A DNA stretch of 56,294 nt from an uncultured Flavobacteriales bacterium (GTDB lineage Bacteria; Bacteroidota; Bacteroidia; Flavobacteriales; BACL11): NCBI GenBank assembly GCA_905478185.1, contig CAJQHO010000039.1, positions 1 through 56,294 on the forward strand, given 5' to 3'. Of the stretch, positions 1 to 55,557 are shown in pieces. The first letter of the stretch is position 1; every line of letters begins with the position of its first letter. The notes beneath the pieces are model-generated. The model ran no database searches. It was not told the DNA's origin and saw nothing but the letters and a program-made list of their open reading frames with translations. The position numbers and the translations under genes were made by a program.

Positions 1-137
1 CAGAATCGGATGCCGGTACTTTAGAAGAAATCATTGAAGAAGTTGCATCAACAAGAGTTACTGAAAGAGGTGGCAGAGCAGATGACAAAAGATCGGAAGC
101 AGCCATGGAAGACAGAAAAAAAGAAGGGTACTTTTAA
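1..137 (+). CDS. cysD: CysD, sulfate adenylyltransferase subunit 2 (C-terminal end only)
   Basis: Only the last 44 codons are present, read from base 3 to a TAA at 135-137. The tail runs GGRADDKRSEAAMEDRKKEGYF-like, and CysD proteins characteristically end with a basic stretch and GYF. CysD is the adenylyl-transfer subunit of ATP sulfurylase and, with the GTPase CysN, makes adenosine 5'-phosphosulfate from ATP and sulfate in the cytoplasm. The gene is cut by the window edge. It lies 11 bp before cysN in the same direction, so the two almost certainly share a transcript. The identification rests on the short tail plus the neighbour. Confidence 0.85.
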   Translation, partial: ESDAGTLEEIIEEVASTRVTERGGRADDKRSEAAMEDRKKEGYF

Positions 138-148
138 AAAACAAAATT

Positions 149-1417
149 ATGAGCGAAACGAAAGGATATTTAGATATGGAGCTTTTACGCTTCACAACTG
201 CAGGGAGTGTAGATGATGGTAAAAGCACTTTGATTGGAAGGTTACTTTACGATAGTAAAGCAATCTTTGAAGATCAAATGGAATTATTAGAAGAAACAAG
301 TAAACAAAGAGGTGAAGAAGGTGTAAACCTTGCGCTATTAACTGATGGATTAAGATCAGAAAGAGAGCAAGGGATTACAATTGATGTTGCCTACAGATAC
401 TTTGCAACTCCAAAAAGAAAATTTATTATTGCAGATACTCCAGGACATATTCAATACACAAGAAATATGGTTACAGGAGCATCAACAGCAAACTTAGCAT
501 TACTTTTAGTAGATGCAAGACATGGTGTAATTGAACAAACTAAAAGACATGCATTTATTGCATCCCTTTTACAATTACCACATATTGCAGTTTGTATTAA
601 TAAAATGGATTTAGTTGAACATAGTCAAGAAGCATATGACAAAATTAAAGCTGATTTTGAGAATTTCTCTTCAAAATTAGAAATTAAAGATGTGCACTTT
701 ATTCCAATTTCTGCACTTAACGGGGATAATGTTGTTGATCGATCTGAAAATATGAATTGGTATGAAGGTTCTACTTTAATGCATCTTTTAGAAAATATTC
801 ATATTGGTTCGGACCAAAATCATGTTGACTGCAGATTTCCTGTGCAATATGTTGTTAGACCACAATCTACTGAACATCCAGATTACAGAGGATATGCTGG
901 GAGAATTGAAGGTGGGGTTTTTAAACCTGGAGATAATGTAACTGTACTTCCTTCAGGGTTTACTTCAAAAATTAAATCAATTGATACTTTTGATGGAGAG
1001 GTTGAAGAAGCTTTTTCTCCTATGTCAGTTTGCATGACTTTAGAGGATGATATTGACATCAGTAGAGGCGATATGTTAGTGAGAGAAAACAATAAACCAA
1101 CTATTGAACAAGATATTGATGTTATGATTTGCTGGATGAATGACAAGAAAATGATTCCAAGGGGAAAATATACTATCAGACATACAAGCCAAACTGCAAG
1201 ATGTATTATTAAAGAGGTAAAATACAAAATGGACATCAATACTTTACACAGAAATGAAGATGATTTAGAAATTGGATTAAATGATATCGGTAGAATTACA
1301 ATCCGTACTACTAAACCTTTATTCTTTGATAGCTATAGAAGAAATAGAAATACTGGAAGTATTATCTTGGTAGATGAAGCATCAAACGAAACAGTTGCTG
1401 CTGGAATGATAATCTAG
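149..1417 (+). CDS. cysN: CysN, sulfate adenylyltransferase subunit 1 (GTPase)
   Basis: A 422-residue translation-factor-like GTPase that couples GTP hydrolysis to APS synthesis by CysD. The P-loop is GSVDDGKST (19-27), G3 is DTPGH (96-100), G4 is NKMD (151-154) and G5 is SAL (188-190), followed by EF-Tu-like beta-barrel domains. The AGSVDDGKST P-loop is typical of CysN/NodQ rather than EF-Tu. The protein is shorter than the E. coli enzyme (about 475 aa) and has no C-terminal APS-kinase (CysC) fusion. The ATG at 149 gives a sensible start 11 bp after cysD, and a strong palindromic terminator follows the stop. Confidence 0.95.
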   Translation: MSETKGYLDMELLRFTTAGSVDDGKSTLIGRLLYDSKAIFEDQMELLEETSKQRGEEGVNLALLTDGLRSEREQGITIDVAYRYFATPKRKFIIADTPGHIQYTRNMVTGASTANLALLLVDARHGVIEQTKRHAFIASLLQLPHIAVCINKMDLVEHSQEAYDKIKADFENFSSKLEIKDVHFIPISALNGDNVVDRSENMNWYEGSTLMHLLENIHIGSDQNHVDCRFPVQYVVRPQSTEHPDYRGYAGRIEGGVFKPGDNVTVLPSGFTSKIKSIDTFDGEVEEAFSPMSVCMTLEDDIDISRGDMLVRENNKPTIEQDIDVMICWMNDKKMIPRGKYTIRHTSQTARCIIKEVKYKMDINTLHRNEDDLEIGLNDIGRITIRTTKPLFFDSYRRNRNTGSIILVDEASNETVAAGMII

Positions 1418-8316: not shown

Positions 8317-8335
8317 TCTTATTTAAAATTAAAGG

Positions 8336-8365
8336 AAAGCTCAGCTATTTAGTTGGGCTTTTTTT
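8336..8365 (+). terminator. Intrinsic terminator of the metalloprotease gene
   Basis: AAAGCTCAGCT, loop ATTT, AGTTGGGCTTT (two G-U wobbles), then a T run. It overlaps the 3' end of the convergent EamA gene. Confidence 0.7.
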
Positions 8366-9223
8366 ATTTACAAGATAAACTCCACTCAATATAATAAACA
8401 TCCCTATCAAATGGTAAGCCGTAATCTTTTCCCCATCAAAAACCCCCCAGAAAATAGCAACAACAGGAATCAAATAAGTGACGGAAGAAGCAAAAATAGC
8501 TGACGACCTACTAATTAGTTTGTTAAATATAATAACTGCCAAAGAAGTTCCTAAAACTGATAGCAAAGCAATATAGCACAAAGCCATATAGCCATCTACA
8601 TGACTGCTTAATTGATTGGTAAAATCAGAAGTAAATAAATAAATTATTGCAAAGGGCCCGATAATCAGAAAAGCTAAAGCAGTAATGGAAGATGCATTTA
8701 AATCATGCAAATATTTTTTAATTACATTTACACTAATTGCATAAAAAACAGTTGCCAATACAACTAGTAAAACATAAATATTTAAAACTACACCTGAAGA
8801 AAGATTGTTTACGGTAAGAAAAACAGCCCCAAATAAACCAATCATTATTCCAATAATATTTGCTTTGGATGGTTTTGATTTGAAAAAATAGACTCCTAAA
8901 ATAAGTGTAAAAAGTGGAACTATTGCATTTAAGATGCCAACCAATGAGCTATCTAAATGAGTTTGTGCTTTTGTAAATAAAAAAGCTGGAATACCATTTC
9001 CTAAAATCGCCATAATTGTAATAGGCAAAAGGTGCTTCTTCTCTACATTACGAAAAGCTTTTGGTAAAAACGGAACTAATGAAAGGAATGCAATCACAAT
9101 TCTGAGACTTGCAACTTGCATAAAATCAAATACCTCAAGCCCTCTTTTCATCAAGATAAAAGAACTCCCCCAAATTATTGCTAAAAGCAAAAGTGTTAAG
9201 TAGTTTTTTAGTGATTCTTCCAT
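8345..9223 (-). CDS. EamA/DMT-family transporter
   Basis: 292 residues with about ten hydrophobic segments in two homologous EamA halves. It starts MEESLKNYLTLLLLAIIWGSSF, and the IIWGSSF motif in the first helix is typical of the family, as is an internal repeat of the pattern near residue 150. These are drug/metabolite exporters; the substrate cannot be inferred. Its start overlaps the end of gldD by 16 bp, so it is the last gene of the ssb-gldE-gldD unit. Confidence 0.88.
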   Translation of the reverse strand: MEESLKNYLTLLLLAIIWGSSFILMKRGLEVFDFMQVASLRIVIAFLSLVPFLPKAFRNVEKKHLLPITIMAILGNGIPAFLFTKAQTHLDSSLVGILNAIVPLFTLILGVYFFKSKPSKANIIGIMIGLFGAVFLTVNNLSSGVVLNIYVLLVVLATVFYAISVNVIKKYLHDLNASSITALAFLIIGPFAIIYLFTSDFTNQLSSHVDGYMALCYIALLSVLGTSLAVIIFNKLISRSSAIFASSVTYLIPVVAIFWGVFDGEKITAYHLIGMFIILSGVYLVNKKSPTK

Positions 9224-23600: not shown

Positions 23601-26600
23601 TGTAACATCATGAGCAGTTGGGTTTAACGAAATTTCATACTCGTAATAGTTGGAAATGAAATCTGTTCCTAAACGAATGAAACAAGATAAATCTCCATCT
23701 TTTAGATTATCTTCTTCTCCTTCAGCATGTACAAACATTTTAATCCTTTTGTAAGTACGCACATCAATATCAGTAGTTTTATAAGCGGCTCTTGAGTCTC
23801 CATCTTGTAAATCACAAACTTTTAATACTAATGACTGTTCGTTCTGTTGTCTGAAAGTAGTTGTAGTATTATCAACTTCTTGCTCAATACCTGGAGGTAA
23901 CACATAATTAATTGGTTCTCTATTTCCATTCTCCTCAATATTTACTGCTGACACATCAAAAGTTGTAGTACCATCTTCATCATTAGGGATATACTCTCCA
24001 GCTTCAGATAGGTCAAAATTATATCTTCTCCACTCTCCCCTCACTAAATCAAAAGTTGCAAACCTACAGACAATAGGATCATTAAAATTAGTTAAAGCTA
24101 GTCTCATAAATCTAATAGATTTAAAATCTCTAATACCTCCAATTACATCATCAGGCTGATAAATTGGAACTCTAAATTGGTACCAATTAATACTCCTTGT
24201 ATCTCCATTTTCTGTTTTTACTGATGTTTCAAGTATATCAGAAATATAATTACTTCCAACTATCATTTCATCAGGATCTAATCTAACTTTATACTGATAA
24301 TAACTTTCAGTTTCTGAAAGCGTATGATCCCTATTCAAGTCCTCTGTATTTGGTTGAGAGGTAGCTGCTGTGGGATAACTTTCAGGAGAATTTTCTGTTG
24401 TTTTAGAATTCCCATCAGGATTATTAAAGTTCTTGTATCTATCTAAAATTAAAGTAGATTTACTATCATAATCACTTCCTCTAAAATAATGAAAATCATC
24501 TGCAGAAGGATCATTAGTTGCATTACCATAAACTGTAGATGTGGTACCGTAAACATCTCCTATTTTTTGAATATAAGTCTCGCTAAAGAACAGTTTTTCA
24601 TCTGAATTCTTTAACCCATCAAAACCAACATCTTGAAATAAACGAGAAGTTGGATCATTATCAAAAGCTTCAACAATTGAAAAATTTGTTGGCACCCTAC
24701 CCCAAACAGTAGTATCTACATCTTCAACTGTAGCTGATGTTGGTAAGCCATTCTCAAAACTTTTATACCCATCTTTTAACACATCCTCTGAAATATTTCC
24801 TAAATGTAAATACATATCCCCTCCAGAATGAGAAATATCTCCATCATCAGAATTAAAAGGATCCATCATCCAGAACTCAATAAACTCAATATTTGAAGCT
24901 TGAAAGTCAGTAGTAGTTAAAGTACGCATCATCCCTCCCCAACTTTCTGTAGGGTTAATCAACTTGCCATCAGCACCTATTCCGTTAATGGTATAATTAT
25001 AAGGACCCCTTTCCTTAGGATAATATGCAATGTCTAAAAGAGAAAGATTTGTAATTTGACTACCCATATTAGGATCTTTATTCGGAAATACTTCAGTTTC
25101 CAAAACCTCACGAGAATAATGATAGGACTGCTGACCGATTGTATTCCCATTTGGAAGGGTAATCGTTTTATTTACATTCGGTGGAGTAATAGAAGTATTT
25201 CTGAAAAATAAAGGATCGATAGTGTACCAAGCTAGCTTTGCTCTATTAAATCCAATAATTAATGAATCGCTCAAGTTAGAATTTTCAAAAAGTTCAAGTT
25301 GTTTTTCTGGGATACTCGCTAACTTCCAAGCACCCATATTTTTTATATCAATTGATGTTCTGCTTGATTCAAAATCATCAATATAAGAAACTCCTTCATC
25401 ACCAACTGCTTTATGATGACCTGGTATTAAATATGCAAATTCAGCTGTTGCAATTAATCTTGATTTTGCTTTTGTTTCAATTAATGGGAGCCAATCCACT
25501 ACTTTAGTTAACCATGGAGCTTCAGTTTGATAATTTGCATCTAAACCCCAAATTGTATTAGAAATAGGCTCTTCACCAGTATTAATTTTCTGAGTGTATG
25601 GTCTTTCAGTCAACCTCAACATAGTTGCACCAAGCATAAAATCTTTATTGATTTCATAATCAGCATGTATACCAATTAGCGTTTTATTCTGAATTCCAAA
25701 CATGGAATTATTTTCTAATGAAATTTTAATTGGCACCCCAGAATTTAAAATTCCTTCATTGATAATTGTAACTCTACCAAGCATATAGTCCACTGTATAA
25801 TCTTGGTTTTCTACTAATTTTTGCGAACCTGCAGTTACTGTAACTGATCCTTCTGGAACATTCATTGCATTCAATCTTATCTCTGCTCCAGAAGATGATT
25901 GATAAGTCCCTTTTAATCGGTACTTATTTTTTTCGGGATATTGCTGAGCAACTGTTAAAGTAGAATCATAGAGCGCCTGATAAGTATACTTTTCACCTAA
26001 CGTTGGGTTTGAAAACTGATCTTTTAGATAAGACCCAAATGGCTCTCTAACAGGAAAAATTACTCTTCCGTTTGATGATCTTGCTGTGATTCCCTCAACA
26101 AAATCAAAAAGCCCATCAGATTGCACGTCAGACTGTTGATTTAATCTATCAAGATTTAATAGTTTAATTAATGGCTTACCATGGACACCCTCCTCAGTAG
26201 TTACGCTTAAATAATTTGTTATTGCACCTGACTCTTCAGTATTTTCATAAACAACATCAAGTACAAATCCGTCTCTACTCATTTGATACGCCCCAAGAGC
26301 ATAAATATTTTTCATCATTAAATGCCAATTTGGTAATGATGGTGAGAAGTTAGTCCCTTTTAAAAGTTTTACAATTAAAGCATCTGGAGCAGTTGGGCCT
26401 GTTGAACTTAACTCACCAACTTGATAGGTTTTACTTCCTACTGTATATTGAAATGCAACCGCTAAAACCTCATCATTATTCAAAGCAGAATTTAAAGAAA
26501 TATAACCCAGTTGAGAATTGATTGTAAATTCTGATTCAGAGAGTTTTCTTGAGCGCTCTAACTTTTCGTAATCTTCTCCATTTGTTAATTGCGTACTACC

Positions 26601-27782
26601 TAAAACGCTATTCACTTCATTAATATTTCTGACTCCTGAATAAGTAGAGCTTAATGCGTTAAATAAATTATTGGCTTCAATATTATCAGGAAAACTACCG
26701 CCACTTGAAGTTGAAAAGCCATTATAAATATTTGAACCCGTTTCCCCTAAATCCAAAAAGGCAACAATGTTTCTTGTATCATTAGTTGTTCCTGTTTTAT
26801 TGGTTACCCAAATTTCAACTTTTGTAATATTTACGCCTGAATTTATAAAAGGTAAATTCTCAAGGGCTTTGTCATAATTATCCTTAAAGTAATGTGCTAA
26901 AAAATAATGTTTGTTTGCTTCATATTGGTCGGCATAAACATCAAACTCTGAAGTTTGAGCACCTCCACTAACTTCAATTTCTGATTTAGTGCTTTTTTGC
27001 TGAGATAAGATTCCTGTTAAAGTCAACCTTCCAAATTGCATTTGAGTTTTAAAACCAAACAATGATTGACTACCAGTAATTAGAGTCCCATTTAAGGGTA
27101 AACTCACATTGCCAATTTCAATTTTCTTTATAATTTCATCCTCATGCCCAGTGTATTCTACTTTCATTTGATTTTCAAAATCAAAAGTAGTTTCAGTATT
27201 AAAATTTGCAGTAACTTTTAATTTATCGCCAATTTTTCCAATTACATTCATCTGAATTTTCTCTTGAAAATCAAAAGAAGTCGTTTTCCTTTGCTCTTCA
27301 GGAAGTGATGGATTATCAATTCTATTAATTTTTAAACCAAAAATAAGTTCGGCTGAACCCTGAGGACGAATATCCACAGCATTTCCTCCAAAAACTCTAT
27401 CAAAAGCCTTTCCTGGAATAAATAACTTTGGCAGCCCTAAGGCAGATGTTTGATTCCCTCCTCTTTCTTTTGATCGCAAATTCCAATAATCTTTTACTGA
27501 TTTTTGCTGAGCATAATCTTGATATTCTGAAAAGCTCATTATTTTAGGATTTCCAAAATCCAAACCGCCTATTTTTTCCTGAACAATATATTTATTTGTT
27601 TCAAGATTAAAAATAACTGTTGCATTAAAGTTAGGTGGAGTATTCATAAACAAACCGCCAGATTGCGCTCCTGAAAATGGATATGATAAAGTTGTATCAG
27701 CAACAGATTGTGCCGATAAGTTTACGCTAAAAAATAGCGTAAAAACTAAAAATGATATTTTATAAATTATTGCTTTTCTCAA
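20658..27782 (-). CDS. sprA: SprA/Sov, T9SS outer-membrane translocon
   Basis: 2374 residues, in the usual 2300-2500 range. A signal peptide (1-25, ending LSAQ) precedes a giant beta-barrel protein. Family-typical stretches are visible: LSYPF near the mature start, IDDFESSRTSIDIKNMGAWKLASIPE (near 800-825), and KERGPYNYTINGIGADG (near 920). SprA forms the 36-strand pore through which T9SS substrates with C-terminal sorting domains cross the outer membrane, so it is the exit for the cargo proteins in this window. It follows ruvA by 13 bp in the maeB-ruvA-sprA order seen in flavobacteria. Confidence 0.96.
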   Translation of the reverse strand: MRKAIIYKISFLVFTLFFSVNLSAQSVADTTLSYPFSGAQSGGLFMNTPPNFNATVIFNLETNKYIVQEKIGGLDFGNPKIMSFSEYQDYAQQKSVKDYWNLRSKERGGNQTSALGLPKLFIPGKAFDRVFGGNAVDIRPQGSAELIFGLKINRIDNPSLPEEQRKTTSFDFQEKIQMNVIGKIGDKLKVTANFNTETTFDFENQMKVEYTGHEDEIIKKIEIGNVSLPLNGTLITGSQSLFGFKTQMQFGRLTLTGILSQQKSTKSEIEVSGGAQTSEFDVYADQYEANKHYFLAHYFKDNYDKALENLPFINSGVNITKVEIWVTNKTGTTNDTRNIVAFLDLGETGSNIYNGFSTSSGGSFPDNIEANNLFNALSSTYSGVRNINEVNSVLGSTQLTNGEDYEKLERSRKLSESEFTINSQLGYISLNSALNNDEVLAVAFQYTVGSKTYQVGELSSTGPTAPDALIVKLLKGTNFSPSLPNWHLMMKNIYALGAYQMSRDGFVLDVVYENTEESGAITNYLSVTTEEGVHGKPLIKLLNLDRLNQQSDVQSDGLFDFVEGITARSSNGRVIFPVREPFGSYLKDQFSNPTLGEKYTYQALYDSTLTVAQQYPEKNKYRLKGTYQSSSGAEIRLNAMNVPEGSVTVTAGSQKLVENQDYTVDYMLGRVTIINEGILNSGVPIKISLENNSMFGIQNKTLIGIHADYEINKDFMLGATMLRLTERPYTQKINTGEEPISNTIWGLDANYQTEAPWLTKVVDWLPLIETKAKSRLIATAEFAYLIPGHHKAVGDEGVSYIDDFESSRTSIDIKNMGAWKLASIPEKQLELFENSNLSDSLIIGFNRAKLAWYTIDPLFFRNTSITPPNVNKTITLPNGNTIGQQSYHYSREVLETEVFPNKDPNMGSQITNLSLLDIAYYPKERGPYNYTINGIGADGKLINPTESWGGMMRTLTTTDFQASNIEFIEFWMMDPFNSDDGDISHSGGDMYLHLGNISEDVLKDGYKSFENGLPTSATVEDVDTTVWGRVPTNFSIVEAFDNDPTSRLFQDVGFDGLKNSDEKLFFSETYIQKIGDVYGTTSTVYGNATNDPSADDFHYFRGSDYDSKSTLILDRYKNFNNPDGNSKTTENSPESYPTAATSQPNTEDLNRDHTLSETESYYQYKVRLDPDEMIVGSNYISDILETSVKTENGDTRSINWYQFRVPIYQPDDVIGGIRDFKSIRFMRLALTNFNDPIVCRFATFDLVRGEWRRYNFDLSEAGEYIPNDEDGTTTFDVSAVNIEENGNREPINYVLPPGIEQEVDNTTTTFRQQNEQSLVLKVCDLQDGDSRAAYKTTDIDVRTYKRIKMFVHAEGEEDNLKDGDLSCFIRLGTDFISNYYEYEISLNPTAHDVTSPAAIWPTQNEIDIAFEILKEAKQDRNSNSSDVSSPYIKYISGGKVTVVGNPNLAHVKTIMIGIRNPKKKSMEDADDGLSKCGQIWVNELRLVGFDEYGGWAANSRFTARLADFGNVTLSGNMSTIGFGSIEKKVNERQKYNAYQYDFSSTFNLGKFFPDDFGIKVPMYIGRSEAIKNPQYNPLDPDILLTKSLSALDSKAEKDDLKEIVQDYVQRKSINFTNIRKTKVQKKGAKAEKAKIYDVENFTVSYSKNETLIRNINTEYNRTTNYRGALTYNFNTQPKNIKPFSKIKFPKSAYFRLIKDFNFNTMPKSFSFRTDIDRNYNETKLRNLSNSNMIIYPTYNKYFTWNRSYELKYDLMRTLKLDFAVNQQANIDEPAGKLDKSDPFYRDKMDTIWSNVWDFGRMKTYNQTFGMNYQVPLNKIPILNFISLNTRYNGGYNWTAAPLAVKHLGNTIQNSNSVQYNGQVNLTTLYNKVPYFKKLNQGSGRGRRGRNTVRNKKEQEENDGEVKKKFEILKHMTRFALGVKNISVNYSENKGVLLPGYLKKPQLLGQDWSHISPGLPFAFGSQKDIRGHAGSQGWITKSSDLNTLYKRNSTQNLTLRSTVEPIKQFRIELTANKTTSNDHTEYFRWDDDINNFNSFSPNESGRYSISFISSWTAFRKDNDDYESKTFNNFRNYRTIIANQLAEQNPNFNGYIDPVTGYPVEYDNNDTILTGGYGATSQEVMIPAFLAAYRGKDPSNSKLTEFPAIPLPNWRITYDGLIKIPFIKKRFKQFSLGHSYRSTYSVGSYQTNLDYGKGDEVNYNNMSYHVSREISQVTINEQFSPLFKVDMTWKSSLLTKVEFKRSRVLALSLANNQLTETGSQEYIFAVGYRIKDVEFKMFSGGKGKKVSSDLDLKLDFNIMNNKTIIRKVIEDVEQITMGQQVFKIKFSADYVVNQRLNIKAFYDRVITNPFISTTFPSSITNVGFSLRFTLAG

Positions 27783-43468: not shown

Positions 43469-46423
43469 TTAAGCTTTATTTCTAATTTTAGTTTGATAGA
43501 ATACTGAAGGATCAACATTTAAATGATCTAGCAACTGATATGATCTAGAGTCTTTCTTTAATCCTTGAATCTGATGAGAATCATCATTTACATCTCCAAA
43601 TACAATTGCATTTGTAGAGCAAGCAGAAGAACAAGCTGTTTGAGCATCTTCATCTCTAACTGTTCTTCCAGCTTTTTTAGCATCAAGTTTAATTGATTGA
43701 ATTTGTTGTATACACATACTACACTTCTCAATAACTCCTCTTGAACGAACAACTACATCAGGGTTCAATACCATTTTACCATAGTCATCATTCATGTTGA
43801 AATCAAACTTATCGTTATCAGAATATTGGAACCAGTTAAATCTTCTTACTTTATAAGGACAGTTATTCGCACAATACCTTGTGCCCACACATCTATTATA
43901 AGCCATGTGATTTTGACCTTCTGCACCATGAGATGTGGCAGCAACAGGACAAACAGTTTCACAAGGAGCATGATTACAATGCTGGCACATTACTGGTTGG
44001 TAAACCGTTTCAGGATTTCCTGAAGGATCCTCCATTTCAGCATACATATCAATTGTAGATATTTTTTCTTCAGCAGATAATTCTTTTGTCATATCAGAAG
44101 AAAAGTAACGGTCAATACGCAACCAGTGCATATCTCTCGATTTTCTAATTTCTTCTTTACCAACAACAGGAACATTATTTTCAGCATGACAAGAAATAAC
44201 ACAAGCAGCACATCCTGTACAAAGTGTTAAGTCAATTGACATATTCCAAAAATGACCTGTTGAATGATCAAACTCGTCCCAAAGAGAAACTTTATCCCCA
44301 GTTTTAGGCCCATCATGAGTAGCATATAATGTTTTATGATTTCCTGAAGTAGGATCGACAATAAAATCAGCAAGTGTAGTTTCTTTTACAATATCTCTTC
44401 CCATCATTGTATGATGTAATTGAACAGCTGCAAATTCGTACTCACCACCAATTACTTCAATAGTAGCATCTCCATTTCCTAAAGAAAAAGCGTTATACCC
44501 TATATCATTACCACATTTCCCTGCTGCAGTTCTACCATATCCAACTGCCAATGCAACGGTACCATTAGCTTGACCTGGTTGAATCATAACTGGAACATTA
44601 TTTAAAGTAGTTTCATTAACAGTAATGTTAACCATACTGCCATTTAAAGCCCCATTAGAAATATTCCAATTTGTAATTCCTAAATCACCAGCTGTAGAAG
44701 CTGACATTGTTAAATAATTATCCCAACAAGCTCTTGATAATGGATCAGGTAATTCTTGTAACCAAGGATTATTAGATTGAGAACCATCTCCCATTGAGAT
44801 TTTTTCAGTCATCTCAAACTCTATAGCCTCAGATTTTGATAAATCAAAAGAAGGAATAGTAGCTGCAAAAGATGCAGGATTTACTTTTCCATCATTTGAA
44901 GTAAAGTAACCATCATGTACAGATTGATTCCAATCAGCAAATGAATAATAGTTTTGTAAATAAGTATGATAATCTGATTCACCCATCCACTTCATTATAC
45001 TTTCTTGAAACTGTCTCCCATTAAACAATGGAGAGATAGTTGGTTGCATAAAAGTATATTCACCATGAGTTGGCATAGCATCACCCCATGATTCTAAGTA
45101 ATGATTATCAGGACAAGCATACATCATTTTTGAAGCAGACTCATCATTATAAAGTGAAGTAGAAATAGTTAAAGATACTTTTTCTAAGCCTGAATTATAT
45201 CCTGCTGCATTCTGTAAGGAATAAGAAGGATTTATATTATAAGTAATTAATGCTGCAATATTACCAGCATTCATATCAGTAATTAATTGAGCAACATCAG
45301 TATCATTTCCTTGGTTTAAATAAGAAGGAGCTGATAAAGTAATTGTATTTTCATAATTTCCTAATTTATCATTTATTGCATTAACTAAAATCTGAATTTT
45401 AGTATCATTACTACCACATACAACAATTGAGTTTCCTGCATTTTTAGATAAATCAGCAGCCATTTTAGCAATTCTACTATCAGCAGTACCACCATTTAAA
45501 GCATTTAATAAATTAGATAATAAACCAGCTTGTTCAGAAGGTTTAATTTGAATTCTTTCATCAGCATTAGAACCTGTTAATGATAAAGTAGATTCAACTT
45601 GATAGTGCTTAGACATTTTTCCATCATTAGGATTTCTACCTAAAGCATAATCTTTTTCATTGTTTGGGTGCCCCCAATTACCAATAAAATCAGCACCAAA
45701 TGAAACAATAACAGCAGCTTTATCAAAACGAAACATAGGTAAAGCTCTTACTCCAAATGAAGTCTTATTTGCTTCTAATGTGCCATGAGAAGAAACAGCA
45801 TCCATTTGTACATGTCTTACATTTTTATATTTAGATGAAAAATCAGCAATTAATTGTTTAGTAGTTGGGCTTAATATAGTAGAAGTTAGAAATGCAATAT
45901 TTCCTCCATCAGCAGAAATCTTTTCTAATTCAGCAGTAATATCAGCATCTACATTGTTCCAATCAGATTTAACACCAGATTTCATAGGATTTTTTAATCT
46001 TGCAGAATCATATAATGACAGAACAGAAGCTTGAACTCTTGCATTAGTTCCTGTTTTGTTTGGCTCAATCTTAATAGGTCTTCCCTCTCTAGTTTTAACT
46101 AAAACAGAAGCATAGTCATGCCCATCATACATTGTAGTGGCATAGAAATTAGCAACTCCAGGAGTTACTTCTTCAGGCTTAATTACGTAAGGAATAGCTT
46201 TGTTAACAGGAGTCTCACAAGCTGCTAAAGTTGCTGCTGCTGTACTGAATCCTAAAAACTTTAAGAAATCTCTTCTTGATGTAGATGTAGATGAAATATC
46301 ACTATCTCCTAAAAACTTATCTACTGGAATTTCTTCAACAAATTCATTTTGTTTTAACTTGTCTATAATCGGATCATTATTTAGCTCTGCTAAACCTTTC
46401 CAATATTTTTTTGCTTTTGTCAT
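43469..46423 (-). CDS. actB: Alternative complex III subunit ActB (iron-sulfur / molybdopterin-like)
   Basis: 984 residues. A twin-arginine region RRDFLKFLGFSTAAATLAAC (50-69) suggests Tat export and lipid attachment at Cys69. A molybdopterin-oxidoreductase-like domain without a visible Mo site (about 75-720) precedes a ferredoxin-like domain carrying four cluster-binding Cys groups: CTGCAACVISC (near 735), CQHCNHAPCETVC (near 811), CVGTRYCANNC (near 843) and CSMC ... CSSAC (near 899). This is the periplasmic electron wire of ACIII. It lies 29 bp after actA. Confidence 0.95.
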   Translation of the reverse strand: MTKAKKYWKGLAELNNDPIIDKLKQNEFVEEIPVDKFLGDSDISSTSTSRRDFLKFLGFSTAAATLAACETPVNKAIPYVIKPEEVTPGVANFYATTMYDGHDYASVLVKTREGRPIKIEPNKTGTNARVQASVLSLYDSARLKNPMKSGVKSDWNNVDADITAELEKISADGGNIAFLTSTILSPTTKQLIADFSSKYKNVRHVQMDAVSSHGTLEANKTSFGVRALPMFRFDKAAVIVSFGADFIGNWGHPNNEKDYALGRNPNDGKMSKHYQVESTLSLTGSNADERIQIKPSEQAGLLSNLLNALNGGTADSRIAKMAADLSKNAGNSIVVCGSNDTKIQILVNAINDKLGNYENTITLSAPSYLNQGNDTDVAQLITDMNAGNIAALITYNINPSYSLQNAAGYNSGLEKVSLTISTSLYNDESASKMMYACPDNHYLESWGDAMPTHGEYTFMQPTISPLFNGRQFQESIMKWMGESDYHTYLQNYYSFADWNQSVHDGYFTSNDGKVNPASFAATIPSFDLSKSEAIEFEMTEKISMGDGSQSNNPWLQELPDPLSRACWDNYLTMSASTAGDLGITNWNISNGALNGSMVNITVNETTLNNVPVMIQPGQANGTVALAVGYGRTAAGKCGNDIGYNAFSLGNGDATIEVIGGEYEFAAVQLHHTMMGRDIVKETTLADFIVDPTSGNHKTLYATHDGPKTGDKVSLWDEFDHSTGHFWNMSIDLTLCTGCAACVISCHAENNVPVVGKEEIRKSRDMHWLRIDRYFSSDMTKELSAEEKISTIDMYAEMEDPSGNPETVYQPVMCQHCNHAPCETVCPVAATSHGAEGQNHMAYNRCVGTRYCANNCPYKVRRFNWFQYSDNDKFDFNMNDDYGKMVLNPDVVVRSRGVIEKCSMCIQQIQSIKLDAKKAGRTVRDEDAQTACSSACSTNAIVFGDVNDDSHQIQGLKKDSRSYQLLDHLNVDPSVFYQTKIRNKA

Positions 46424-46452
46424 ATTATATAGAACTTAAATCTAAATACTTA

Positions 46453-47667
46453 TTAATAATGGCACTTACCACACTCTAAACCACCTATCTTGTCTACAGT
46501 AATTTTTTCACCTGAATATTGCTCTTTCATTTTTTCATGAAGACTAGTATAGTAATCGTTTCCTTCCATCTTCACTTCAGTTTCTCTATGACACTCAATA
46601 CACCAGCCCATAGTTAAATCATTTTCTTGTTTTACAACATCCATCTCCTCAATAGCTCCATGACATTCTTGACACTCGATTTTACCTACATTAACATGTT
46701 GCGAGTGATTGAAATAAGCTAAATCAGGTAGATTATGAATCCTTACCCATTCAATAGGCTTTTGCTCGTAACCTTCAATATATTGTCGCTTATCAGGATC
46801 ATAGCCAACTGCATCATATATTTTTTGTAATTCTGTAGCGCCTGCGATAGAGCCCTCTACAATACTTGCATGACAATTCATGCAAACATTAGCAGATGGT
46901 ATACTAGAATGCTTAGACTTTCTTGCAGAAACATGACAATAATTACAGTCAATCCCATTATCACCTGCATGAATTTTGTGCGAGAAAGCGATTGGCTGTT
47001 CAGGTTGATAATTAGTAGTAACACCTACGCCCATCATTGCATCATATACAAACTTTAAAATTACAATTGCAAAAAATAAGCCAACAAATAATTTATTGAT
47101 AGTATTAGAGAAAAACAAAGTAAAATTAGATTGTACCGTTGCAGTGACTGACTCAGAATCTTGCCCTAAACTTTCTTTAAGACTGTTTTTTACAGATGTC
47201 AATATATATATCAGAGTTAATAAAACCAAAGCAATCAACATCATTTGAGTAGAAGCAGACAGCCCTTCTTCTTCAGCAACAACAGTATTTTTGATAGCAA
47301 CAGGAGCCTCCTCTACTGGAGGATTTTCTAAATAACCAAATAAAGCTTCAAATTCTTCATCAGAAAAATAAAAATTTGTCATTACAACTTTATTATACTC
47401 CTCAAAAATTGCAATTGCATCTGCATCGCCAGAAGCAATTAATTCAGATGAATTATTAATCCATTTTTTCAACCATTCTTTATCTCTTTTTTCTGTTATG
47501 CCTTTTAAACCTGGACCAATAAGCTTAGTCTCTCCTAAAACATGACATGCTGTACAGTTTTGTTTAAAGATTTGAGCGCCATCTACTTCAGCTAACGATT
47601 GAAATGAAAATGTAAACGATACTACAAGAAGTAAAAAGTAGTTTTTAATATTATAAATTCTAATCAT
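46453..47667 (-). CDS. actA: Alternative complex III subunit ActA, cytochrome c fused to pentaheme domain
   Basis: About 404 residues. Signal/anchor 1-29 (ending QSLAE). Six CxxCH heme sites are visible: CTACH in an N-terminal monoheme cytochrome c domain, then CNYCH, CMNCH, CQECH, CIECH and CGKCH in the pentaheme domain, with membrane helices between (LIALVLLTLIYIL; LFVGLFFAIVILKFV). I chose the ATG at 47667 because the -7 element lies at 47702-47695; longer frames start upstream of the promoter. ActA takes electrons from the Fe-S subunit. The N-terminal fusion is common in Bacteroidetes. Confidence 0.94.
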   Translation of the reverse strand: MIRIYNIKNYFLLLVVSFTFSFQSLAEVDGAQIFKQNCTACHVLGETKLIGPGLKGITEKRDKEWLKKWINNSSELIASGDADAIAIFEEYNKVVMTNFYFSDEEFEALFGYLENPPVEEAPVAIKNTVVAEEEGLSASTQMMLIALVLLTLIYILTSVKNSLKESLGQDSESVTATVQSNFTLFFSNTINKLFVGLFFAIVILKFVYDAMMGVGVTTNYQPEQPIAFSHKIHAGDNGIDCNYCHVSARKSKHSSIPSANVCMNCHASIVEGSIAGATELQKIYDAVGYDPDKRQYIEGYEQKPIEWVRIHNLPDLAYFNHSQHVNVGKIECQECHGAIEEMDVVKQENDLTMGWCIECHRETEVKMEGNDYYTSLHEKMKEQYSGEKITVDKIGGLECGKCHY

Positions 47668-47694
47668 GTTAAATATATCTTCAATTTTAGGCTG

Positions 47695-47702
47695 CAAATT
47701 TA
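47695..47702 (-). promoter_or_regulatory. Promoter -7 element of the actABCDEF operon
   Basis: TAAATTTG on the minus strand, giving a leader of about 24 nt before the actA ATG at 47667. The rest of the 145-bp gap to the nfu gene is AT-rich with nothing else recognisable. Confidence 0.55.
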
Positions 47703-47812
47703 TATTTTTCAAATTAAAAAAATAGATATAAAATAACTGTATAATGTAATTTATAGCAATTCTAAATAGAAAATGCTCTACTAGATATAACATCAAGAAA
47801 AATAATTGACTT

Positions 47813-48067
47813 TTAGAGAGCAGAAATTTCAATAACCTCTTTCACTTCAGGAACAGCACGCTTAACAACAACCTCAACACCATTTTTTAAAGTTGATAAA
47901 CTAATACTGCAATTACTGCAAGCTCCAATCAATTTTACTTTCACCACCCATTCATCAGTAAGTTCAATAAAATTAATATCACCACCATCATCCTCTAAAA
48001 AAGGTCTTATCTCAGCTAAAGCACCCTCAATTTTAGCAATAATAGTTTTGTCAGTAATAATTCCCAT
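47813..48067 (-). CDS. NifU C-terminal domain (Nfu-type) Fe-S carrier
   Basis: 84 residues consisting only of the NifU C-terminal domain: IRPFLEDDGGDINFIEL and the cluster-binding CSNC (Cys50, Cys53) in GACSNCSISLSTLKNGVE. It carries and delivers [4Fe-4S] clusters. It lies 6 bp after the Mrp gene, which has a related role, and upstream of the Fe-S-rich act operon. Confidence 0.9.
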   Translation of the reverse strand: MGIITDKTIIAKIEGALAEIRPFLEDDGGDINFIELTDEWVVKVKLIGACSNCSISLSTLKNGVEVVVKRAVPEVKEVIEISAL

Positions 48068-50256: not shown

Positions 50257-51306
50257 GTGAAATCAAAAAAACGAATATTAGTTGCTCCACTAGATTGGGG
50301 AATTGGGCATGCTACAAGATGCATACCAATAATAAAACAACTAATTTCACATAATTATGAAGTAATTATTGCAGCTGATGGCAGGCCTATGCATCTACTA
50401 AGTACAGAGCTTCCTGACTTAGAAATGATTCGTTTTTCAGGATACAACATTAAATACCCTAAGTATTTGCCAATGAGTATTAGTATGCTTTTGCAACTCC
50501 CCAAATTAATTATAGGGATTAAAAAAGAACATTCAATGTTAAAACAAATTATTGAAGATTATAATATCGATGGGGTAATATCTGACAACAGGTATGGGCT
50601 GTATTCCAATAAAGTGCCAACTGCTTTTATCACTCATCAACTTAAAATACAAAGTCCTTATTTTTCTAAAAGTATTCAAAATTTTAATTACAAATACATT
50701 AATAAATTTGATGCATGTTGGGTAATGGATGATGATGAAAATAGTTTGGCTGGGGAATTATCAAAACCTGATTATCTTCCCAACAACACCTCATATATAG
50801 GAGTTCAATCTCGTTTTGAGAAAATAGATGAAAAGAATAAATATGACTTCTTAGCAATTGTTTCTGGGCCAGAACCCCAAAGAACAATACTTGAAAAAGG
50901 TTTGATAAAAGCTTTAAAAGACAGAAAAGAAAAATCATTAATTGTACTTGGGAAACCTGAGATAGATACCCATGAAACCGTGGGGAATTTAAGTGTTCAT
51001 TCTCATATGAACGCAACTGAATTAAATACAGCCATTACACAGTCTGAACTTATTATTTGCAGACCTGGGTATTCTACAGTTATGGATTTAGCGAAACTTG
51101 AGAAAAAGGCATTTTTCATTCCAACACCAGGACAAACCGAGCAAGAGTATCTAGCCGCTAATTTTAAGCAGAATGGAATTTGTTACTCACAAAAACAAGC
51201 TGATTTTGATTTTGAAAAAGCAATAACCCAAAGTAAAAAATACTCAGGATTTGTTGCCATAAAACTTACTTCAACAAATTGGGAAGAATTATTTAGCCTT
51301 TTTTAG
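50257..51306 (+). CDS. MurG-like (GT28-type) glycosyltransferase
   Basis: 349 residues, GT-B fold. N-terminal KRILVAPLDWGIGHATRCIPI carries the glycine-rich GxGHxxR motif; the C-terminal half has SELIICRPGYSTVMDLAKLEKKAFFIPTPGQTEQEYLA, the donor-sugar site of the GT28 family. Donor and acceptor are unknown; a role in envelope polysaccharide or glycolipid synthesis is possible. It starts with GTG at 50257, since no ATG precedes the conserved N-terminus. Its 3' end overlaps convergent phoR by 18 bp. Confidence 0.85.
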   Translation: MKSKKRILVAPLDWGIGHATRCIPIIKQLISHNYEVIIAADGRPMHLLSTELPDLEMIRFSGYNIKYPKYLPMSISMLLQLPKLIIGIKKEHSMLKQIIEDYNIDGVISDNRYGLYSNKVPTAFITHQLKIQSPYFSKSIQNFNYKYINKFDACWVMDDDENSLAGELSKPDYLPNNTSYIGVQSRFEKIDEKNKYDFLAIVSGPEPQRTILEKGLIKALKDRKEKSLIVLGKPEIDTHETVGNLSVHSHMNATELNTAITQSELIICRPGYSTVMDLAKLEKKAFFIPTPGQTEQEYLAANFKQNGICYSQKQADFDFEKAITQSKKYSGFVAIKLTSTNWEELFSLF

Positions 51307-52293
51307 AATAAAAGAAAAAGTAGACCCAACATCAATAGTACTTCTAACATTAATTGTCTGATTATGTGCTTCAATAATATGCTTTACAATTGCTAACCCT
51401 AATCCTGTGCCGCCAATTTTTCTAGATCTATTTTTATCAACTCGATAAAACCTTTCAAAAAGCCTAGGCAGATCCATCTCACTAATACCAATACCATCGT
51501 CAGCAATCTCTATTAAAATATTCTCATTCATGTCAAAAAATCTTACTTCAGTACGACCACCCTCTTTCCCATATTTAATAGAGTTACTTATTAGATTTGC
51601 AAAAACTTGCTGAATTTTATCAATATCTCCTACAACAAACTCTGTAAGTATTTCTTTTTGAATCGACAGTTCAATTTTTGACTCATTTGCTTTTAATTCT
51701 AACTGATCAAGCACATCTTTTACTAACTCAACAATATTAAATTCCCCAATTTCTAATTGTGATTCTTCTGTTTCCAATCTAGTAATAACCTCTAAATCAT
51801 CTACAATATTAATCATTCTATCAACACTCTTACTAGTTCTTTTCAAGTATTTCATGTTTACCTCTTCATCATATAAACCTCCATCTAAAAGTGTAAGAAT
51901 ATATCCTTGTATATTAAAAATTGGTGTTTTTAGCTCATGTGAAACATTACCAATAAATTCTCTTCTATAAGTTTCTGATGCTTTCATTTGCAGAATTTCA
52001 TTTTCTTTCTGTATTGCCCAGTCTTCCACTTCTTTTTCTACTGAATCAATATCTACATCCACAAACCTTGTAACGCCTTTGTGCGTATAGATATTTTTAT
52101 ATATAACACTAATCTTACTATGTATATATAGTTTTACAACTTTATAAATTAATACAACTGAAAACCAAAAGAATAAAACTAAACTTAAAAGAAAATACTC
52201 AGTTCCTGATGCTGCATAAAATAAACTTCCTGCTAAAACAAAAAGTACCGCACTTAAGAATAATGATATTTTTATTGGTGTGTTAAACCGCAT
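51289..52293 (-). CDS. phoR: PhoR-like sensor histidine kinase
   Basis: 334 residues. Two membrane helices (about 8-27 and 33-50) with almost no periplasmic loop, so no external sensor domain; no PAS domain is evident. The H-box is FIGNVSHELKTP with His119, the N-box is ANLISNSIKYG, and the ATP-lid motifs are DDGIGI and GGTGLGLAI. PhoR assignment rests on the partner phoB, the kinase type and the phosphate-related genes across the divergent promoter. It overlaps phoB by 1 bp. Confidence 0.85.
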   Translation of the reverse strand: MRFNTPIKISLFLSAVLFVLAGSLFYAASGTEYFLLSLVLFFWFSVVLIYKVVKLYIHSKISVIYKNIYTHKGVTRFVDVDIDSVEKEVEDWAIQKENEILQMKASETYRREFIGNVSHELKTPIFNIQGYILTLLDGGLYDEEVNMKYLKRTSKSVDRMINIVDDLEVITRLETEESQLEIGEFNIVELVKDVLDQLELKANESKIELSIQKEILTEFVVGDIDKIQQVFANLISNSIKYGKEGGRTEVRFFDMNENILIEIADDGIGISEMDLPRLFERFYRVDKNRSRKIGGTGLGLAIVKHIIEAHNQTINVRSTIDVGSTFSFILKKAK

Positions 52294-52961
52294 TATATAT
52301 CAAATTTATATCCTACTCCTTTTACTGTTTTAATATGATTATCTCCAATCTTCTCCCTTATTTTTCTAATATGAACATCAATAGTTCTATCTCCAACTAT
52401 TGCATCCTTCCAAACCTCATTAATTATTTCTTTTCTAGTGAAAACCTTAGCAGGTATAGTCATTAAGTAAAATAATAACTTAAATTCTTTTCTAGCCAAA
52501 GAAATAAATTCACCATTACAAGAAATAGTGTGCTTTTCTTGATCAATTTCAATTCCTCCAACTTCTATTTTATTTACAGCTTTATCTCTACTTTTTCTTC
52601 TTAAAATAGCGTTAACCCTACTAATTAGTAATTTAGGTTTTATTGGCTTAGTAATATAATCATCAGCGCCTGCACTAAAGCCTGCTAGCTGAGAATAATC
52701 CTCAGCCCTTGCAGATAAAAATAATACAAGTGTTTCATCTAACTCAGGTAATTCTCTTAACCTTTGACATACATCAACACCATCCATCTCTGGCATCATT
52801 ACATCTAGAATAACTAAATCTGGCTTATGCTTTTTTGCTAATGCTAATCCTTTTGCACCATTATTTGCAGTAAGTATTTCAAATCCATCTTTTATTAGGT
52901 TATAAGATAAAAACTCTAAAATATCCTCCTCATCGTCTACTAATAAAATTTTTTGGCTCAT
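52293..52961 (-). CDS. phoB: PhoB-like OmpR-family response regulator
   Basis: 222 residues. The receiver domain has DDEED near the start, phospho-acceptor Asp53 (LVILDVMMPEMDG) and the conserved Lys in DDYITKPIKP. A winged-helix OmpR-type output domain follows (LARKEFKLLFYLMTIPAKVFTRKEII ... RTIDVHIRKIREKIG). PhoB-like regulators bind tandem 11-bp repeats, and such repeats stand upstream of the divergent genes. The -7 element is at 52982-52975. Confidence 0.85.
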   Translation of the reverse strand: MSQKILLVDDEEDILEFLSYNLIKDGFEILTANNGAKGLALAKKHKPDLVILDVMMPEMDGVDVCQRLRELPELDETLVLFLSARAEDYSQLAGFSAGADDYITKPIKPKLLISRVNAILRRKSRDKAVNKIEVGGIEIDQEKHTISCNGEFISLARKEFKLLFYLMTIPAKVFTRKEIINEVWKDAIVGDRTIDVHIRKIREKIGDNHIKTVKGVGYKFDI

Positions 52962-53152: not shown

Positions 53153-53192
53153 CTTAACAATTCCTTAACATTAGGATAATGTTTAAATAACT
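53153..53192 (+). promoter_or_regulatory. Candidate PhoB box upstream of the microprotein-PiT operon
   Basis: Two identical CTTAACA units at 53153 and 53164 are separated by 4 bp, the 7+4 layout of classical Pho boxes. Two further units in the same 11-bp register (53175, 53186) keep the central TAA. A -7-like CATGTTTG follows at 53213-53220, 19 nt before the microprotein-ATG leader. The rest of the 280-bp phoB-to-microprotein gap is AT-rich without other features. Confidence 0.5.
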
Positions 53193-53212: not shown

Positions 53213-53220
53213 CATGTTTG
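53213..53220 (+). promoter_or_regulatory. Possible -7 element of the microprotein-PiT operon
   Basis: CATGTTTG, one mismatch to TAnnTTTG, placing transcription start about 19 nt before the ATG at 53243. A degenerate -7 box would fit an activator-dependent promoter. Confidence 0.35.
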
Positions 53221-53242
53221 CACTAAACAATAACAAATTAAA

Positions 53243-53332
53243 ATGAACAACACAACAAACACACAACCACTAGATTTATCAGCAGTAATTTACTTAGTAA
53301 TTATGATAACTGTTTTTTTCGCAGCTGTTTAA
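53243..53332 (+). CDS. Putative 29-residue membrane microprotein next to the PiT-like gene
   Basis: ATG at 53243, TAA at 53330-53332. A polar N-terminus (MNNTTNTQPLDLSA) is followed by one hydrophobic helix of about 15-17 residues (VIYLVIMITVFFAAV) that ends the protein. It lies 24 bp before the PiT-like gene and after the candidate PhoB box, so it would be the first gene of that transcript. One-helix microproteins often bind transporters; E. coli MgtS (31 aa), for example, acts on MgtA and PitA. There is no homology claim here. Confidence 0.5.
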   Translation: MNNTTNTQPLDLSAVIYLVIMITVFFAAV

Positions 53333-53356: not shown

Positions 53357-54499
53357 ATGAAAAAACTTATTAAAGCTTTTAGTTTTCCAGCAACAGTTTG
53401 GTTTCCTAAAACTGAGCATAATTTTCTATTATTTATAATTTGCTCATTTTTACTTGCAATGTTTGCCACACCCTATCCTCAGTATGCAATGTGGGTTGGT
53501 TTTATTTTTGCAGCATATGCTGCAATTGCAAACGATAGCATACAAACTATTGGAACTTTTATCGCATCAAACCAAGATAAGAAATGGTGGGTGCTTTGGA
53601 TTTTCATTGGAGGAATATTTTTCTTTACTATGCTTTTTAGTTGGGTAACTCTTGGTGGAGATGTTTCACACGGAAGATTAACATCTAAAGGATTTGAAAT
53701 AGCTCCTACGGAATTTCATTTCCTGCAAATTGCCGCACCAATATTCTTACTAATTCTTACGCGTTTAAGAATGCCAGTATCCACTACATTTATTTTACTT
53801 ACTTCATTTGCCGCTACACCTGCAGCCGTAGGAGGTGTGCTTGCAAAAAGCATGAGTGGATATATCCTTTCCCTAATAATGGGACTTATCTTTTTTATGA
53901 TAGTTGCTAAGGCATCTAAAAAGTACTTTACAGGAGAAGCTAAATTTGGATGGACAATTGCACAATGGATTACTTCAGGTACACTTTGGTCAGTTTGGCT
54001 AATGCAAGATGCTGCTAATATTGCAGTATACTTACCGAGAAGCCTAAACACTGCAGAGTTTATTGGGTTTACATCAATTGTTGTAATAGGATTAGGGCTA
54101 TTACTTTACTATAAAGGTGGCAGAATACAAAAGATTGTTACTGAAAAATCAGTAGTTACGGATGTAAGATTTGCTACTTTAATTGACTTAATTTATTGTG
54201 TTATATTATTTTACTTTAAGCTATACTCTAATGTCCCTATGAGTACTACATGGGTGTTTATTGGATTACTTGCAGGTAGAGAAATAGGAATGTCAATTAT
54301 GAGAACCTCTGATAATACACTATGGGCCTCTATAAGACTTGGATTAAAAGATGCTAGTTATGCAATTCTAGGTCTTGTTATTTCTATTGCAATTGCAATT
54401 GGTGTTAACGACCAATTAACAGTAGACTTAATGTTAACAGAGATGCCTGAACAATTTGTTCAAGGTATTGTAAAATTCTTTAGTAGACTAGGCCTTTAA
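53357..54499 (+). CDS. PiT-like inorganic phosphate transporter-related membrane protein
   Basis: 380 residues with about ten membrane segments. Two features recall the PiT (PF01384) phosphate:cation symporters: AIANDSIQTIGTFIAS (near 57-72), like the GANDxxNxxGT motif, and MPVSTTFILL (near 140-149), like PxSTTH. A second ND-like motif, MQDAANIAVYLPRS (near 216-229), suggests the internal duplication of the family. It is divergent from standard PiT proteins, with Asn-Asp kept but the His of STTH replaced. The phosphate role is inferred from motifs and neighbours. Confidence 0.65.
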   Translation: MKKLIKAFSFPATVWFPKTEHNFLLFIICSFLLAMFATPYPQYAMWVGFIFAAYAAIANDSIQTIGTFIASNQDKKWWVLWIFIGGIFFFTMLFSWVTLGGDVSHGRLTSKGFEIAPTEFHFLQIAAPIFLLILTRLRMPVSTTFILLTSFAATPAAVGGVLAKSMSGYILSLIMGLIFFMIVAKASKKYFTGEAKFGWTIAQWITSGTLWSVWLMQDAANIAVYLPRSLNTAEFIGFTSIVVIGLGLLLYYKGGRIQKIVTEKSVVTDVRFATLIDLIYCVILFYFKLYSNVPMSTTWVFIGLLAGREIGMSIMRTSDNTLWASIRLGLKDASYAILGLVISIAIAIGVNDQLTVDLMLTEMPEQFVQGIVKFFSRLGL

Positions 54500-54594: not shown

Positions 54595-55557
54595 ATGAAA
54601 AAAACAATCTTATTACTAATTAGCGCAGTACTTATTACATATAATTCAAATGCGCAAAACGGCACCCCTTCAGTTAAAGTTTTCTCTAACTTTAATTATG
54701 ACATGTCTTCTGAGGAAAATGAAACTGCATTTAAAGAGTTTAAAATTAAACGATCATATCTAGGTTATTCATATCAAATAGATGATAATTTTTCAACAAA
54801 AATTACCTTTGATGTAGGCAATAATAATGGGGGAAGTTCATATACAGCATTTTTAAAAATAGCTTCATTAAAATGGAAGACTTCTGATAAATTAACTCTT
54901 AATATTGGAATGGTAGGCACAAAGAATTTTAAATTTATGGAAAAAGCTTGGGGGAAAAGGTATATCGAAAAATCTGCGCAAGACAAGTACAAATGGGCAA
55001 ACTCTGCTGATGTAGGTATCACAGCTGATTATAAAATTGGTAATAAGCTAGCTATTGACGCTCAAATATTAAATGGGGAAGGATATAAAAAAGTGCAAGA
55101 TGATTTAGGGTTATTTAGAGGCGGACTAGGTATTACCTATAGAATAAGCACTAGCTTAGCTTTAAGATTGCATCAGGATATAACACCGAGAAGCTCTTAT
55201 ACTGATTCAACTGATTCTCAATATATTTCTGCTGCAAGTCTTGCCTATTCAGGAACAAATTTTTCACTAGGATATGAAGCAAGTTTAATGCAAAATTCAG
55301 GCAATATTATAGCTGATGAAGAGAAAAATTTAATGTCGATTTATGGGTCCTATAAATTAAATGAAGATTACACTCTATTCGCTAGATATGACGATGCTAC
55401 AGAAACCGCTAATGAAGGTTCATATACAATTTATGGTATAGAAAGACAAATGACGAAAGGAGTAACTGTTGCAATAAACATGCAATCATGGACAGGTGCT
55501 GCAGATGGATCTGAAGCTGAAAATACTTTATACATAAATTTAGAATACAAATTCTAG
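54595..55557 (+). CDS. Phosphate-selective porin (OprP/OprO)-like protein
   Basis: 320 residues. Signal peptide 1-21 (ending SNAQ), then many beta strands with aromatic girdles: FKEFKIKRSYLGYSYQIDDNFSTKITFD at the start resembles OprP/OprO family N-termini, and the end NTLYINLEYKF has the C-terminal Phe of outer-membrane barrels. It is somewhat shorter than OprP (about 400 aa). With PhoBR and the PiT-like protein it suggests phosphate uptake across both membranes. It has its own candidate PhoB box and terminator. Confidence 0.75.
   Translation: MKKTILLLISAVLITYNSNAQNGTPSVKVFSNFNYDMSSEENETAFKEFKIKRSYLGYSYQIDDNFSTKITFDVGNNNGGSSYTAFLKIASLKWKTSDKLTLNIGMVGTKNFKFMEKAWGKRYIEKSAQDKYKWANSADVGITADYKIGNKLAIDAQILNGEGYKKVQDDLGLFRGGLGITYRISTSLALRLHQDITPRSSYTDSTDSQYISAASLAYSGTNFSLGYEASLMQNSGNIIADEEKNLMSIYGSYKLNEDYTLFARYDDATETANEGSYTIYGIERQMTKGVTVAINMQSWTGAADGSEAENTLYINLEYKF

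Follow-up and report, generated by a model that had tools for sequence, protein, structure and literature searches.

The window, as the whole stretch of 56,294 nucleotides analysed here is called, carries a small open reading frame (ORF) of 29 codons. It begins with ATG, ends with TAA and encodes the peptide MNNTTNTQPLDLSAVIYLVIMITVFFAAV. A gap of 24 bp separates it from the ATG of a 380-aa ORF, whose product resembles phosphate transporters of the PiT type. Genes for a PhoB-like response regulator and a PhoR-like histidine kinase diverge from this pair; both names are those of the best model, and both scores are below the curated cut-offs. The other features of the cluster are listed in Table 1. 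Elsewhere in the window lie a gene for a 2374-aa SprA-type gliding or secretion protein (SprA_N; 20658-27782, minus strand) and, at 43469-47832 on the minus strand, a multihaem cytochrome c gene adjoining one for a 984-aa Fer4 protein. The latter arrangement is that of alternative complex III clusters. The glycosyltransferase of Table 1 is a candidate for lipid remodelling in phosphate starvation. The same glycosyltransferase family, pf04101, is part of the PhoBR operon of F. johnsoniae, according to the accessible part of one report (PMC8115612).

Table 1. Features of the gene cluster, with positions in the window.
Feature	Position	Strand	Basis
Glycosyltransferase (Glyco_tran_28_C), end to end with phoR	50257..51306	+	Domain match
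PhoR/PnpS-like histidine kinase, divergent	51289..52293	-	HisKA + HATPase_c; PnpS 254 bits, cut-off 400
PhoB-like response regulator, divergent	52293..52961	-	Response_reg + Trans_reg_C; PhoB best NCBIfam model, 219 bits, cut-off 296
Pho-box-like direct repeat CTTAACA-N4-CTTAACA, 11-bp period	53153..53170	+	14/14 positions
TTTGC just before the ATG, candidate part of a Bacteroidota-type -7 element	53217..53221	+	Weak in the window itself
Gene for 29-aa single-helix membrane protein (predicted)	53243..53332	+	Homologues, codon pattern, helix periodicity, hydropathy
380-aa PiT-fold phosphate transporter-like protein	53357..54499	+	AF2 model m40015ec9e96d against TmPiT 6l85_A
Putative outer-membrane beta-barrel protein, next in the cluster after the transporter	54595..55557	+	DUF5777 E 3e-4, below its cut-off

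A preliminary description of this DNA had proposed a one-helix peptide of 29 residues encoded 24 bp before the transporter gene, and the ORF is exactly as placed there. Frameshifts or stops in close relatives, which it had named as the contrary sign, are not seen: the ORF is intact in the two closest relatives (loci L022 and L023) and in all other carriers of the gene. Homologues are 25-33 aa long, with one helix and the consensus K.IDLS...YL.IM..VF.IA. An alignment of 35 distinct sequences (A1), which leaves out three carrier peptides containing X (L030, L051 and L055), has Y17 throughout and S13 at a weighted frequency of 94%; D/E, M, V, F/Y and A are also conserved. Codon change is mostly synonymous, with pN below pS in 581 of 595 pairs and in 44 of 47 close pairs. 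For instance, the pair L037 and L039 has a pS of 0.53 and a pN of 0.04. The closest trio (the window, L022 and L023) has zero synonymous changes and is uninformative on selection.

The small ORF is a true conserved protein-coding gene, selected on its amino acids. A chance ORF or an annotation artefact, for which nothing speaks except the small size, is contradicted by the conservation across 35 distinct sequences and can be dismissed with near certainty. No Pfam or NCBIfam model matches any of the 35 members better than E 0.09, and Pfam models give no PF01865 match in the peptide. A search of PDB sequences with the peptide profile returned one match, at E 0.12, which was taken as chance.

The gene finder Prodigal has a minimum gene length of 90 nt. 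The claim that standard gene callers would miss such an ORF probably holds for the family, in which 19 of the 35 members have 25-28 aa (78-87 nt with the stop codon), but the window ORF, at 90 nt, is borderline.

The window peptide has a single hydrophobic stretch, which runs for 17 residues from S13 to the C-terminus, has no charge and reaches a mean Kyte-Doolittle value of 2.60. By the same hydropathy calculation this segment spans 17-20 residues in 35/35 members, with means of 1.67-2.66. The peptide is predicted to be a single-pass inner-membrane protein, which would insert into the membrane through this segment. Its conserved residues fall on one face of the helix: their Fourier power at 100 degrees is reached by 0.9% of 10,000 permutations, and the peak lies at 90-95 degrees. 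Because of this helix-turn periodicity, one face probably contacts a partner.

The neighbouring protein was placed by its predicted structure. A fold search with its AlphaFold2 model (pLDDT 81.9, pTM 0.80) matched TmPiT (6l85_A) with Z 20.7 and an rmsd of 3.9 over 290 residues, and the next unrelated fold had Z 6.5. The model supports a PiT fold, in line with the PiT-like neighbour of the preliminary description. At the sequence level, Pfam PHO4 (PF01384) has no match in the window protein at E 0.1 and matches 24 of 62 aligned relatives, the best at 7.6e-8. The profile of the transporter found no PDB sequence at E 10. Its alignments, A2 (62 rows) and A3 (52 rows), include the window and were drawn from 80 named-genome loci in addition to it; they omit near-duplicates, sequences with large insertions or disrupted frames, and some further rows. 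Four PiT-like proteins (L056, L057, L060 and L064) are longer, at 501-545 aa, and have an insert of ~100-160 residues between positions corresponding to residues 99 and 102 of the window protein.

Residue 1 of TmPiT aligns to residue 39 of the 380-aa protein, which consequently has an extra N-terminal helix, and also a C-terminal helix beyond the match. The idea that the peptide is a helix missing from the PiT core was ruled out, since the 380-aa protein alone matches TmPiT from residue 1 onwards. An AF2 model of an in-frame read-through of peptide and transporter shows the peptide part as a helix at a pLDDT of only about 65, gives no inter-residue error and does not prove contact. It matches TmPiT in the same way (model 77..391 covers chain 1..395). 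Fold searches with it are uninformative on the peptide helix itself, for which a missing match says nothing.

The distribution of the peptide was followed in loci fetched with the 380-aa protein (21 loci from 60 relatives and 80 from named genomes), in which the upstream DNA was read. Of the 101 loci, 56 have a homologous peptide immediately before this PiT-like gene, a frequency well above chance; the seed profile, built from these loci themselves, gives E values of 1e-15 to 6e-5. Among the named-genome loci, 37/80 have it and 43/80 do not. Of those without it, 39 are distant PiT-like genes with at most 62% identity, and the other four (L029, L050, L052 and L054) belong to the close clade and have an upstream region unlike that of carriers. 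Weak profile hits in L079 (E 0.22) and at a second place in L045 (E 0.65) were judged chance.

The peptide alignment was also searched alone, free to match anywhere in 395 genomes of the order. This search gave 38 matches at E 0.001 or better, and 37 of them lie 4-197 bp upstream of a PiT-like gene on the same strand; the gap is 4-58 bp in 31 of these 37 genomes. The other match, in G326 (E 5e-4), covers 19/27 positions within a frame of 260 aa, has no PiT with it and was taken as chance. Samples of the class and of the phylum, 395 genomes each and overlapping the order sample, gave the window's own genome as the sole match. The carriers of the gene belong to a clade of marine Flavobacteriales with small genomes.

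The transporter, with its N-terminus, is found in 40 genomes, three of which have no peptide: G078 and G119 (loci L050, L052 and L054) and G247 (L029), which is only 61% complete. Given these three, the peptide is not strictly required for the transporter. The clade of L050, L052 and L054 has the residue swaps G86S, A195P, A202I, A345V/I and G349Q, of which all except A195P put larger residues at otherwise constant small positions of the transporter. The swaps are suggestive of a filled groove; they come from one lineage and are not taken as proof. G119 has two copies of the PiT-like gene. In another genome (G099; L101 and L137) the peptide ORF is intact and the PiT-like gene is broken by several frame changes, which may be a sequencing error.

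A phoB- or phoR-like gene is close by in 36 of the 37 carrier loci, some of which are cut by contig ends. In 21 loci these genes lie upstream and diverge from the pair (for L045 only phoB was found); 11 loci have them downstream (two of these with only phoB found), four have them upstream and co-oriented (two with only phoR found), and in one neither was found. A homologue of the barrel gene is near the pair in 21/37 loci, downstream in 14 and upstream in seven, and was not found in 16. The gene order in G044 is barrel-pstS-pstC-pstA-pstB-phoU-peptide-PiT, where ORFs other than PstC and PhoU were named by eye. The positions of phoBR, barrel and pst genes thus shift from locus to locus, whereas peptide and PiT-like gene remain together as a constant unit with near-obligate pairing. 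The peptide gene comes first, as the preliminary description had it.

Single loci show further arrangements. In L132 (G044:C10) a single cluster runs through phoBR, the barrel gene, a complete pst-phoU set and the peptide-PiT pair. The pair is preceded in G057 by a 944-aa ORF that resembles, by eye, a TonB receptor. Two PhoB-like genes, at 334-978 and 8083-8751, flank the peptide-PiT region of L135 (G082).

Pho boxes have a 7-4-7 layout. The candidate regulatory box noticed earlier before the small ORF is a perfect repeat of this layout, CTTAACA-ATTC-CTTAACA, as good in 0/200 shuffles. Of 38 loci, 37 have a repeat matching at least 11/14 positions in the 150 bp before the small ORF; the mean is 12.9 vs 8.9 in shuffles, and the exception, L045, reaches 10/14. 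The Pho-type box suggests that the pair belongs to the Pho regulon, with PhoB as the probable binding and controlling protein. Bacteroidota-type -7 elements have the consensus TAnnTTTG; this motif or TTTGC is present in the zone before the ATG in part of the loci.

A short ORF only 4-58 bp before the transporter in most genomes could also be a cis-acting leader peptide or upstream ORF that governs the transporter gene through its own translation. Five loci with gaps of 142-197 bp bear on this reading. A second Pho-box-like repeat of 11-13/14 positions stands before the transporter in 5/5 of them (as good in 0 to 14 of 500 shuffles), and a terminator-like hairpin with a T-run follows the peptide gene in 3/5. 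In these loci each of the two genes seems to be started on its own, so a leader peptide does not fit. The strong selection on amino acids, including the one-sided helix, also argues against it, and a leader is very improbable.

The shared promoter region bears on another proposal, in which the peptide, in the manner of MgtS, would inhibit or quench the transporter and so limit the flux of phosphate, or of metal-phosphate. Size and single helix agree with it, and for the 31-aa MgtS both inhibition of PitA and stabilisation of MgtA are reported (review PMC10710835). The 35 members have no convincing family-model match, however, and an inhibitor and an importer under one Pho-type box would rise together in starvation. 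An uptake inhibitor made together with the importer would be self-defeating, which makes this role improbable. The earlier analogy with MgtS, which left open whether the peptide stabilises or inhibits, thus keeps the transporter as the likeliest partner and loses most of its inhibitory half.

Other known routes of phosphate uptake were seldom found in carriers. Models for PstC, PhoU, NptA, PHO4 and PhoU_div found nothing in the window's own genome (G000), which is 98% complete. By its gene content, the PiT-like protein would be the only recognised phosphate importer of this genome, and its PhoBR system seems to work without a PhoU-type protein. Among 60 relatives, at least one of the five models is over its cut-off in 2/17 carriers vs 34/43 non-carriers, leaving 15/17 carriers with none; the carrier genomes in this comparison include incomplete ones. 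PF01865 is absent from G000 and from 17/17 of these carriers. In the family to which the window's genome belongs, none of Pst, NptA, PHO4, PhoU and PhoU_div is over its cut-off in 13/13 carriers vs at least one in 17/24 non-carriers. Because no other importer model is found in these carriers, the PiT-like protein may be their main phosphate importer.

The same comparison raises the question of how such cells report phosphate to PhoR, and the peptide might be a connector that binds both the transporter and PhoR. Besides the lack of PhoU-type proteins in most carriers, a phoB- or phoR-like gene accompanies nearly every pair. In six genomes of the order, canonical PHO4 genes have a PhoU_div frame of 222-255 codons about 70-100 bp upstream, the slot that the peptide occupies here. 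Pairings of PitR with PitA, of PhoU with Pst, and with NptA are described in the available part of one paper (PMC13170248). Sequence distances of the peptide, compared over 31 loci, track PhoB no less closely than PiT (partial values 0.42 and 0.23), and PhoR as well as PiT; co-evolution therefore does not single out PiT. Yet two carriers, G044 and G050, additionally have pst-phoU, so the peptide is not simply a replacement. The orientation and distance of phoBR vary among carriers, and the clade of L050, L052 and L054 has a PiT-like and a phoB-like gene without the peptide. A connector is a minor possibility.

On balance, the best explanation is that the peptide is probably a starvation-induced, dedicated accessory subunit of the PiT-like transporter. 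The Pho-type promoter would have the two proteins made together when phosphate is scarce. The peptide would form a single helix in the inner membrane and place its conserved face (S13, Y17, I20/M21, V24/F25 and A28) against a protein partner. This partner would most likely be the PiT-like transporter encoded directly behind it, because of the gene linkage, and physical contact would help the transporter to assemble, stay stable or gate. A positive rather than an inhibiting effect is the most likely one because peptide and transporter alike seem geared to starvation. Against a subunit count that TmPiT has no need of such a helix and that the 39 more distant PiT-like loci and three genomes of the clade lack the peptide.

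These results add a conserved family of ~27 residues, below the usual limits of gene finders, to phosphate uptake in marine Flavobacteriales, in genomes where no other known phosphate importer was found. A search of the open-access literature, limited in scope, found no report of this peptide. Were it a transporter subunit, a PiT-family protein would have a small subunit built in, an arrangement of which the searches turned up no earlier case. Should it signal to PhoR instead, phosphate sensing by PhoBR in bacteria without PhoU-type proteins becomes directly testable.

Several known systems resemble parts of this arrangement. PitR, the Pit accessory protein (DUF47, PhoU_div, PF01865), is encoded directly upstream of a Pit-family gene, as far as the accessible text states (PMC13170248). 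The peptide gene has the same slot, of which the order holds the six examples given above. PitR is PhoU-like and far longer, whereas the peptide is a membrane helix of 25-33 aa.

In E. coli, MgtS is part of the Mg/PhoPQ response, and its gene is not known to lie with pitA. It is of near length, has one helix and acts on PitA and MgtA (in the part available of PMC10710835), and a PiT-family protein is the likely partner in both cases. Family models, the means by which homology to MgtS was examined, gave no convincing match for the peptide, and its gene, unlike that of MgtS, adjoins that of the transporter behind a Pho-type box.

One-helix partners of many-helix symporters are also known. MetS is a small single-helix subunit of MetPS, encoded in the same operon. 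MAP17 of SGLT2 is described as another partner of this design. Both serve other transporter families and have no sequence match with the peptide, for which contact with the transporter is a prediction. The gene acrZ is not known to lie beside acrB. AcrZ and similar one-helix modulators place a small helix along the membrane domain of a transporter, according to the available part of a review (PMC10710835), but AcrZ acts on a different class (RND). Finally, small DUF1127 proteins that act on PhoR are another case of small proteins in phosphate control; in the accessible part of their description they are arginine-rich and positively charged (PMC12501420), unlike the hydrophobic helix found here.
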